Below are positions 26,772 to 52,809 of a stretch of 64,000 bases of DNA, piece after piece. The notes below the pieces were generated by a model, which was not told where the DNA came from, did not search any database, and saw nothing but the letters and a program-made list of their open reading frames with translations. Numbering within the stretch: position 1 is the first letter of the stretch; every line of letters begins with the position of its first letter. The stretch lies in NCBI RefSeq assembly GCF_000147715.2, contig NC_017934.1, positions 992,001 through 1,056,000 of the forward strand, given 5' to 3'. This stretch comes from Mesotoga prima MesG1.Ag.4.2. GTDB lineage: Bacteria > Thermotogota > Thermotogae > Petrotogales > Kosmotogaceae. The translations under genes were made by a program, and so were the position numbers.

Positions 26772-26786
26772 GTTCCGTTTGCCGGT

Positions 26787-27461
26787 GTGCTGTTGAAAGC
26801 AGATAATGTTCTTGAAAGCGAGATAATTTCCCTTCTTGAAGAAGGGGAACTATGTCCCGTCTGCAGATCTATGGAGAAATCAGTTGATGGGTGGATAGTC
26901 GGAGCCTTTTCCAACCTTCTTCACAACGAAGGTGCTCGAATGGAATTGAGAAGAAATGGGCTTTGCACAGTTCACTTAAAGAGAATTGTGGAAGTAGCAA
27001 AAGAGAGATCCGAAGTAGGATCCCTTGCAGTCTCGATAATGTTCAAAGAGATTCTTGCTGCTCAAGTTTCGTGGCTTGATGAAAAAGATGTCGGATTCTT
27101 GTCTAGAAAAAAGCCGAAATCTGGGAGCTGCGTTCTGTGTTCCGTGGCCAGTAATAGTGAGAGAATCTATCTTTCTGCCTTCGTGAAGTTTCTTCAAAGA
27201 GATGAAGTACAGAGGTCATATGAGAACTCCAGATCCGTTTTTTGTGTGAATCATTCAAGATACATCATCAAGAATATGAGAAATTCATGCGGCCAGTGGC
27301 TAGCTGGAACCCAAAGAAATAAATATGAGGACCTCACAGCAGAGATGGAAAACTACATTTCTAAACATGATTACAGAAACACAACTCCCGTTGGGCAGGA
27401 AAGACATGCTTGGTTAAACGCATCTAAGTTGATTGGGGAGAGGGATGCAAAAAACAGTTAG
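26787..27461 (+). CDS. DUF6062-like protein with duplicated CxxC/CxxH zinc ligands
   Basis: A 224-residue protein with two similar halves. Half 1 has CPVC (near residue 23) and GLCTVH (near 61); half 2 has CVLC (near 113) and VFCVNH (near 153). Two CxxC plus CxxH sets suggest two zinc sites in a helical protein. It resembles DUF6062 proteins of Firmicutes as I recall them. The start is GTG 26787 or TTG 26793, only 15 bases after the lipoprotein gene. Function unknown. Confidence 0.65.
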   Translation: MLLKADNVLESEIISLLEEGELCPVCRSMEKSVDGWIVGAFSNLLHNEGARMELRRNGLCTVHLKRIVEVAKERSEVGSLAVSIMFKEILAAQVSWLDEKDVGFLSRKKPKSGSCVLCSVASNSERIYLSAFVKFLQRDEVQRSYENSRSVFCVNHSRYIIKNMRNSCGQWLAGTQRNKYEDLTAEMENYISKHDYRNTTPVGQERHAWLNASKLIGERDAKNS

Positions 27462-47371: not shown

Positions 47372-47644
47372 TTATCGATAGCTTACCCTGGCAATACCAT
47401 CCTTCATGCATGAACCAAAACCGTAGGCCACTGAGCTGGTGTCCATTCCAGGAAGATAAAAAACCGTTATCATTTCGTCAACGTCCTGACCGGAGGTCTC
47501 CCACAGTTTGCGGGTAATTCTCTGGAGCTCGACTTCGCTTACAACTGATTTCTTCAGTTGAATTCTTGCGGTGCGCCTTCTCCAGGCCTTTCCAAAATCC
47601 CTCACGGTTACGACTGAATAAGCGTCTTCCAGATTAGACTTCAA
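47372..47644 (-). CDS. Conserved small protein of unknown function
   Basis: A 90-residue protein from TTG 47644 with GGAGGG upstream. It has a basic N-terminal half (GKAWRRRTARIQLKKSVVSE), a helical ELQRITRKLWETSGQDVDEM, and an aromatic strand region TVFYLPGMDTSSVAYGFG. I do not recognise it, but the domain-like pattern and good binding site argue that it is real. It converges on the adenosyltransferase gene with two bases between stops. Confidence 0.6.
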   Translation of the reverse strand: MKSNLEDAYSVVTVRDFGKAWRRRTARIQLKKSVVSEVELQRITRKLWETSGQDVDEMITVFYLPGMDTSSVAYGFGSCMKDGIARVSYR

Positions 47645-47948: not shown

Positions 47949-48122
47949 CTAGCCGATATTGCTTCTTCCGACGCCGAGAACTTTCTTACAAACGGGGCAG
48001 AAATATACCACATTTTTGCTGAACTAAAAGCCTGGTCCCTTTGTTTTGTAGTAAAGCTCTGTGAGCTCTCCCTCGCAATATGGGCACTTCGGCGTCAGGT
48101 CGTCTCTTCTTAGCAGATTCAT
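47949..48122 (-). pseudogene. Zinc-ribbon protein gene interrupted by an in-frame TAG
   Basis: From ATG 48122, behind AAAGGAG, the frame reads a 32-residue N-terminal half with CPYC (residues 13-16), then TAG at 48026-48024, and continues in the same frame as FSKNVVYFCPVCKKVLGVGR to TAG at 47951-47949. Ignoring the internal stop gives a 57-residue protein with two CxxC motifs 25 residues apart, the spacing of a zinc ribbon. It lies 77 bases after the GH84 gene on the same strand. A nonsense mutation or sequence error is most likely; amber read-through is possible but unproven. Confidence 0.7.
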
Positions 48123-48199
48123 TTCTTTCAGCTCCTTTCAATTCGATCTAACTTAGCATGGCAACTGCAATTCCCAAAACAGTTATCAGGTCTGTAACA

Positions 48200-49576
48200 C
48201 TAATCGATTATGAGTTTGAGATAGCCCTTTGTTCTGACGAGAATCTCTTGAACGATTTCTCTGAAGAGAATACCACTCGTAAGCGTTTCGGTCTTTACCA
48301 GTTTGCAAAGGGATATTTCGATTTCTCTGCATAGTTTAGTAGTTTCCGAAAGTTCCTCATAGCTCACGGAGCTTGAAAACATTAGATCTCTCATCGCCAA
48401 AATCCCAGTTGTTTTCGTCAGAGCATCTCCCCAAAGAGAGAACTCAAATATCCAGGGTTCGATCTCACGGATCAGATCAGCGGATAGCCTTTCATTTAGC
48501 GCTTTTTCCGATCCTGAGATCTTTGTTGCTTCGTCCAAAAGGATTTCATAGACCTCAGTCCATCTGTTTTTCGATAAGAGTTTGCTCAAGTTACTTGTGA
48601 GTCCTGTAAGTCTCTCGGAGTGGGTAGTGTGTACGGGACTTCGAAGATTGTATTCACAGAAATGGATCATCTCTTCTTCACAACCCGGTGCAATCTCGGA
48701 GATTGCTCTCCTCCAGGATAAGTCAGAATCATAGCGATAAGGGTCTAGAAGGAATTCCGATGCCGAGAAAATTGCGATTTTCGAAGCTAAAGGTTGAATC
48801 ATGGGGTTTAAAACTATACCCTCCGCGTGATTGACAATGTTCGGGTCTCTGCCTTCATAAGGACCTACATGAAGCTCTGGTACCATAGAAGCATCGTTAA
48901 CAGGATAATTATCCCACAACAGGATCTTCCTTTGGAAGGCATTCTCGGCCAACTCTGCATTATCTGCACTTAGAACATTAGAGCAAACGTCGGGCCCGGT
49001 CCAAAGGATTGAGATATTCCTGTCTAGTTCTGTTCCAAGTGTCTTCATATACTCGGTTGCTTCGCGACCGCAGTACTGAGTGGGACAGATCATAAACCGG
49101 GAAAGAGTCTTGAGCTTCTCGTTAATGCTTTTGAAAACTGAATTTGTGAAATATGCCTGTGCCGATGAGAGGGAAGAGAAAGTGTTCCGATCTTTTTCAT
49201 AAATCAAGGTTTCCGGAATATCATCATAAAAAAGTCCAAAGGAACGGACACCCGCATCTGCCAACCTCATTAGCTTTTCTACCATGGCACTTACATCTGA
49301 ATTGCTGGAATACGTTATATTCAACCCGGGACTCACCGCAAATACTATCGATATTCCACGGGATTCCGCTTCCTGAACCAGTATAGAGAACTCTTTGAAG
49401 AAGTTTTCGTCATATTGCTCACGCCAGCGCTTTCTGTGTAGCTCATCGTCCTTTGGAGCATAGATATACGTGTTGAAACCGTGATCTCCAAGATACTGAA
49501 TAACTTCTCTTCTGATATCCATTGTCCACGGTTTGCCATAAAAGCCTTCAACTACTCCCCTGATCTCAAAAGCCAT
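48200..49576 (-). CDS. GH84-family beta-N-acetylglucosaminidase
   Basis: A 458-residue cytoplasmic glycoside hydrolase related to O-GlcNAcase and NagJ. The N-terminal RGVVEGFYGKPWTMDIRREV and NTYIYAPKDDELHRKRWREQ are typical. The catalytic aspartate pair is in FGLFYDDIPETL near residue 115. The enzyme uses substrate-assisted catalysis on N-acetylhexosaminides. No signal peptide is present, so it may act on imported GlcNAc saccharides. It starts close to DegV, which is read the other way, and precedes the interrupted zinc-ribbon gene. Confidence 0.85.
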   Translation of the reverse strand: MAFEIRGVVEGFYGKPWTMDIRREVIQYLGDHGFNTYIYAPKDDELHRKRWREQYDENFFKEFSILVQEAESRGISIVFAVSPGLNITYSSNSDVSAMVEKLMRLADAGVRSFGLFYDDIPETLIYEKDRNTFSSLSSAQAYFTNSVFKSINEKLKTLSRFMICPTQYCGREATEYMKTLGTELDRNISILWTGPDVCSNVLSADNAELAENAFQRKILLWDNYPVNDASMVPELHVGPYEGRDPNIVNHAEGIVLNPMIQPLASKIAIFSASEFLLDPYRYDSDLSWRRAISEIAPGCEEEMIHFCEYNLRSPVHTTHSERLTGLTSNLSKLLSKNRWTEVYEILLDEATKISGSEKALNERLSADLIREIEPWIFEFSLWGDALTKTTGILAMRDLMFSSSVSYEELSETTKLCREIEISLCKLVKTETLTSGILFREIVQEILVRTKGYLKLIID

Positions 49577-52263: not shown

Positions 52264-52266
52264 TGT

Positions 52267-52809
52267 GTGGAGATGTCGGTGAGAAAGACCAGTTTTCCTA
52301 GTTGTGAAGTAGTAGGCTTCTCTTTCGTATTTATTGTTGGTACCTTGCTTCACATGGCCTATGACTGGAGCGGGGACGATGCTATCGTAGGTATTTTTGC
52401 GCCGGTAAATGAAAGTATCCGGGAGCTCCTTAAAATGGTTTTCACGCCTGGACTAATACTTCTTTTTCTAGAATTGCTGTTTTGCAGTGAGATACCGACC
52501 GCTTCTTTTCTCTCTGGAAAGGCAGTTGGAATCTACGTGATGTGCGTAACGATTCTTGGAGGTTTGTATTCCTATTCTCTTGTCATTCATTACGGTCTCA
52601 TTCTTGATGTACTTCTCATGGTAATCGCGATTGCACTGGGGCAGCTAGTGTCGTTCAAGATCTCACCCAGGATCGCTGCAGATTCAACTGCAGGAATCAT
52701 TTCACTTGTAATGTTGGTCTTGCTAGGTGCTTCCTTCGTAGTATTCACCTTTTTGCCGCCGCATTGGGAGTTCTTTAGAGATTCAATAACGGGAGCTTTC
52801 GGGATCTAG
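52267..52809 (+). CDS. DUF6512-type membrane protein
   Basis: A 180-residue integral membrane protein with about six helices. HMAYDWSGDDAIVGIFAPVNESIRELLKMVF is the segment I recall from the DUF6512 family. The start is GTG 52267 or ATG 52273, immediately after the reductase gene. Function unknown. Confidence 0.7.
   Translation: MEMSVRKTSFPSCEVVGFSFVFIVGTLLHMAYDWSGDDAIVGIFAPVNESIRELLKMVFTPGLILLFLELLFCSEIPTASFLSGKAVGIYVMCVTILGGLYSYSLVIHYGLILDVLLMVIAIALGQLVSFKISPRIAADSTAGIISLVMLVLLGASFVVFTFLPPHWEFFRDSITGAFGI

Follow-up and report, generated by a model that had tools for sequence, protein, structure and literature searches.

A zinc-ribbon gene of Mesotoga prima probably interrupted by a recent nonsense mutation

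Ordinary nonsense-mutated genes of bacteria carry a single substitution to a stop codon, keep the remainder of their frame intact and have intact orthologues in related genomes. Here, we describe a small gene of Mesotoga prima MesG1.Ag.4.2 with the same combination of features, a single substitution to a stop in an otherwise intact frame with intact orthologues, and nothing that we tested separates it from such genes. Its closest counterparts are the orthologues in four other Mesotoga genomes (G001, G009, G003 and G004), which are 58-65% identical to the read-through frame of the M. prima gene and resemble it in their neighbours and in their terminal TAG, but have TTG at codon 33 where M. prima has TAG. 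We consider it highly probable that this gene, of the CPxC..CPxC zinc-ribbon type, has undergone a recent nonsense mutation in the lineage of the M. prima type strain.

The analysis covered a stretch of 64,000 nucleotides (the window), in which the interrupted zinc-ribbon frame is a real feature flanked by two conserved neighbours:

47949..48122, minus strand: remnant of a zinc-ribbon gene of 57 codons and a stop, with an interrupting TAG at codon 33 (read directly and from relatives)
48024..48026, minus strand: premature TAG, codon 33 (TTG in 5/5 other Mesotoga copies, ATA in the copy of another genus, G023)
47949..47951, minus strand: terminal TAG, codon 58 (same stop at the same position in 6/6 Mesotoga copies)
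48123..48138, minus strand: ribosome-binding site region AAAGGAGCTGAAAGAA preceding the ATG (direct reading)
48200..49576, minus strand: upstream neighbour, GH84-type beta-N-acetylglucosaminidase (same place in G001, G003, G004, G008 and G009)
47372..47644, minus strand: downstream neighbour, conserved 90-aa open reading frame (ORF90) with no Pfam match over cut-off

Read on the minus strand from 48122 to 47949, the frame runs from MNLLRRDD..CPYC..GF to the first TAG and continues as FSKNVVYFCPVC..NIG to the second. The full translation is MNLLRRDDLTPKCPYCEGELTELYYKTKGPGF, TAG (codon 33), FSKNVVYFCPVCKKVLGVGRSNIG and TAG (codon 58), while the plus strand at 47949..48122 carries unrelated sequence. 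The preliminary description of this locus had reported a frame with CPYC, TAG at codon 33, CPVC and TAG at codon 58, which we find as given, although on the minus strand, a point that it had left unstated. The strong ribosome binding site claimed for the gene corresponds to AAAGGAGCTGAAAGAA ahead of the start codon ATG (48120-48122, minus strand), which we judged by eye to be a good Shine-Dalgarno sequence. Its statement that a zinc ribbon is completed only with read-through holds as well, as two CxxC pairs in one chain require codon 33 to be read through and the 32-residue product has one pair.

An open frame behind a TAG codon is in itself a common occurrence. Among the 1241 TAG trinucleotides on both strands of the window, 380 (31%) are followed by an open run of at least 24 codons, so that the open frame alone proves nothing. 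That the two halves form one gene follows instead from homology, namely from uninterrupted full-length relatives in four other Mesotoga genomes and in one other genus of the Thermotogae. A search with the read-through protein matched 7 of 61 genomes made up of the organism's own and others from its genus, family, order and class; these were six Mesotoga genomes, including the window's own, and G023, from another genus of the order. The identical seven genomes were recovered by an alignment-based search of 103 genomes of the class, for which the alignment query included the window's own row.

The gene was found at the same locus in five of nine other Mesotoga species genomes (G001, G003, G004, G008 and G009), and in all five the order GH84, zinc ribbon, ORF90 is kept. 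Since both neighbours are shared in 5/5 cases, the copies are orthologues by position. Behind ORF90, a PduO gene was matched in G003, G004 and G009, and the contigs of G001 and G008 stop within or just past ORF90. ORF90 itself belongs to a family of which a genome may hold as many as three copies, not all of them intact in appearance, and relatives with in-frame stops occur in G004 (one TAA) and G009 (one TGA and one TAA; loci L058 and L060). Codon 33 of the zinc-ribbon gene is TTG (Leu) in G001, G003, G004 and G009, and likewise in G008 in the aligned register, the one-base deletion of that copy lying further upstream in the gene. In three relatives from other phyla, the residue aligned with codon 33 is L or F. 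The window shares the sequence directly after the codon, TTCAGCAAA, with G001, G004, G008 and G009 without any difference. With TTG in all five Mesotoga relatives, one T-to-A transversion accounts for the TAG of the window, and a sense codon at the place of the stop in every same-locus orthologue, with neighbours kept, is what is expected of a pseudogene that arose by nonsense mutation. According to this comparison, a single T-to-A change would have turned Leu33 (TTG) into TAG, and translation would then stop at codon 33 and yield a 32-residue peptide bearing the first zinc knuckle only, from which no ribbon could form.

The sequence behind the stop provides a rough indication of its age. Between the window and four relatives, the proportion of nonsynonymous differences is 0.13-0.15 in codons 34-57 and 0.25-0.29 in codons 1-32, with corresponding synonymous proportions of 0.72-0.83 and 0.61-0.79, and the lower nonsynonymous proportion in the distal part indicates that constraint on the half after the stop is no weaker than on the half before. 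Residues invariant among five relatives are kept in the window at 11 of 11 positions after the stop and at 8 of 10 before it. In a simple neutral simulation, all 11 were kept with a probability of less than 5% once about 0.12 substitutions per site had accumulated. Jukes-Cantor synonymous divergence from the relatives is at least 1.28 for codons 1-32 and 2.41 or saturated for codons 34-57; as 0.12 is far below the synonymous divergence where this can be estimated (at least 1.28), a neutral phase can account for no more than a small portion of the branch. This is a coarse estimate, resting on 24 codons, one sequence and saturated synonymous sites. Apart from the stop, the window copy carries no lesion and nothing else marks the gene as dead; an old pseudogene would be expected to show additional lesions or a loss of constraint past the stop, and neither was found in it, and the stop is therefore either recent or not real, rather than old. 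Within its limited power, the comparison points to a distal half still under purifying selection and to a young stop, and the mutation would be recent relative to the split from other Mesotoga species, given that the sequence after the stop still looks constrained.

The preliminary description had left two explanations for the intact downstream half, decay of very recent date or decoding of the codon, and had suggested a comparison with other Mesotoga and a search for a suppressor tRNA. The comparison supports recent decay and speaks against recoding, and the tRNA search lends decoding no support. A useful read-through of the amber codon to a full-length protein, by leaky termination or by a suppressor tRNA, would agree with a downstream half that is intact, in frame and constrained until recently, but TAG stands at codon 33 in none of the five Mesotoga relatives nor in G023, and none of the 46 tRNA genes found in the genome by an Rfam tRNA search has a CUA anticodon. 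ARAGORN read the anticodons of all 46, all ordinary, including that of one tRNA-Leu which is printed as 'tag' and reads CUA codons. Release factor RF1 is present (493.6 bits against a cut-off of 423.25), whereas pyrrolysyl-tRNA synthetase (PylS) gave no match over cut-off in the genome (best 21.1 bits against 178.15), 12 of 14 control genomes likewise giving only matches below cut-off. The terminal TAG at codon 58 is common to all six Mesotoga copies, with downstream sequence that varies by species, so that this gene normally ends in TAG. A mechanical list of the window's open reading frames of 200 aa or more, in which some entries may not be genes, has 42 members. Of these, 16 end in TAG, 17 in TGA and 9 in TAA, and the open tails behind their stops are no longer after TAG (median 16 codons) than after TAA (19), the median after TGA being 9. 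Thus, none of the marks of amber recoding, that is, a CUA tRNA, loss of RF1 or a pyrrolysine system, and an in-frame TAG conserved in orthologues, was found; amber decoding, whether global or local, was rejected on the evidence of the tRNA set, RF1, PylS, the use of stops and the orthologues, and TAG functions as a stop in this genome. We accordingly regard useful read-through as very unlikely. A variant in which the amber codon is a conserved feature of M. prima and low-level read-through, with no suppressor tRNA, lets one gene yield two zinc-ribbon products, short and full-length, is extremely improbable. Hardly any credence can be given either to the two halves being separate peptides that assemble into a ribbon, the second re-initiated at GTG codon 38: this GTG is in frame five codons past the premature stop, but no Shine-Dalgarno sequence is visible before it by eye, in none of the relatives is the gene split in this way (the case of G008 being a one-base deletion), and a second half of 20 residues would hardly be stable. 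Neither read-through nor re-initiation has any positive evidence in its favour. Elsewhere in the window, 10 of the 42 open reading frames of at least 200 aa have frames that stay open for at least 54 codons past the stop. The two longest of these post-stop frames, 181 codons after a TAG (52264-52806, plus strand) and 229 codons after a TGA (26772-27458, plus strand), directly follow the stop of the preceding gene in the same frame; by eye, they resemble separate next genes rather than interrupted ones.

An error of sequencing or assembly, or a mutation fixed in one culture, would look identical to a mutation of the lineage, and the gene would then be intact in M. prima. The good preservation of the rest of the gene is also what would be expected if it were unbroken, and the comparison covered one M. 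prima genome. Finished genomes rarely contain substitution errors, however, and the window lies at 992001-1056000 of a single contig of 2,974,229 bases, a length equal to that of the published chromosome. The chromosome of M. prima MesG1.Ag.4.2 is given as 2,974,229 bp (PMC4603820). An error, or a change private to the sequenced culture, is thus improbable in our view, and a recent nonsense mutation in the type-strain lineage is the reading that we favour.

The distribution of the gene in the genus is patchy, as it is present in 6 of 10 Mesotoga species genomes, the window's own included. No match was found in G002, G005, G006 and G007, either in the protein search or in the alignment-based search of 103 genomes, and the absence from G005, which is 80% complete, may reflect incompleteness. 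G007 and G002 have the pair of ORF90 and PduO without GH84 or the zinc ribbon, and no zinc-ribbon remnant was found beside it, the best E-values there (0.19 at L071 and 0.84 at L072) being at chance level. For ORF90, G006 yielded nothing beyond weaker matches, and G005 yielded none. Some of the copies that do exist are altered: in G004 (L005 1501-1671, minus strand), Phe replaces the first Cys of the first knuckle; in G008 (L012 2529-2698, plus strand), a one-base deletion shifts the frame, which is possibly an assembly error of metagenome contig WOZY01000150.1 at 4.7x coverage; and in G003 the start is shifted, as its first codons can be aligned only if a TTG is taken as the start, and this TTG lies at a distance from the Shine-Dalgarno-like GGAG that is large. 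As other species lack the gene or carry damaged copies, Mesotoga would seem able to do without it, although each item alone is weak, and with the incompleteness of G005 and the low coverage of G008 the evidence is weaker than the raw counts.

The window gene probably encodes a small zinc-binding protein. Its relatives have about 57 residues with the CPxC..CPxC arrangement, both CxxC pairs being present in G001, G003, G009 and G023, and are also found in metagenome-assembled genomes of Acidobacteria, Stahlbacteria and Zixiibacteriota. The homologues of Candidatus Stahlbacteria (L011), Candidatus Zixiibacteriota (L013), Acidobacteria (L010) and G023 share length and the pattern CPxC...KGxG...K..YFCPxC.K..G..S with the window frame, but differ from it in their C-terminus (QSRMA versus RSNIG), in their gene neighbours and in having no internal stop. 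More widely, family members L010, L011, L013 and L077 and the Mesotoga copies L003-L006 have a conserved C-terminal YFCPxCxK.xG..S, with the QSRMA end outside Mesotoga, and no neighbourhood common to the homologues of the different phyla is apparent by eye. Among the matches listed, no Pfam or NCBIfam model was over cut-off for the protein; the zf-LITAF-like family (PF10601; 18 bits against a cut-off of 23.8) and Zn_ribbon_PaaD (PF23451; 16.2 bits against 27) are alike in Cys-pair spacing over short matches. No solved structure matched convincingly (best E-value 0.052), and an AlphaFold2 model of the Zixiibacteriota relative has four strands and no helix at a mean pLDDT of 59, which is no proof of fold. 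For a small zinc ribbon, nucleic-acid or protein binding would be a guess. A phage or plasmid origin of the gene was considered and rejected, as no relatives were found in the viral_contigs, phages and plasmids databases, and the exact DNA pattern around codon 33, with the changed base left free, had no match in viral_contigs. Around the gene, promoter-like sites (3 against 1.2 expected) were uninformative and a pattern scan gave no terminator-like site. Among the matches listed from the literature on Mesotoga pseudogenes, stops and zinc ribbons, no published account of the M. prima gene was found.

Beyond annotation, the finding matters little. The locus would be a clear instance of a nonsense mutation seen at an early stage, in which the open frame past the stop could pass for recoding. 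It also draws attention to an uncharacterised family of small zinc ribbons, which among the matches listed has no Pfam or NCBIfam coverage over cut-off and which has members in several phyla.
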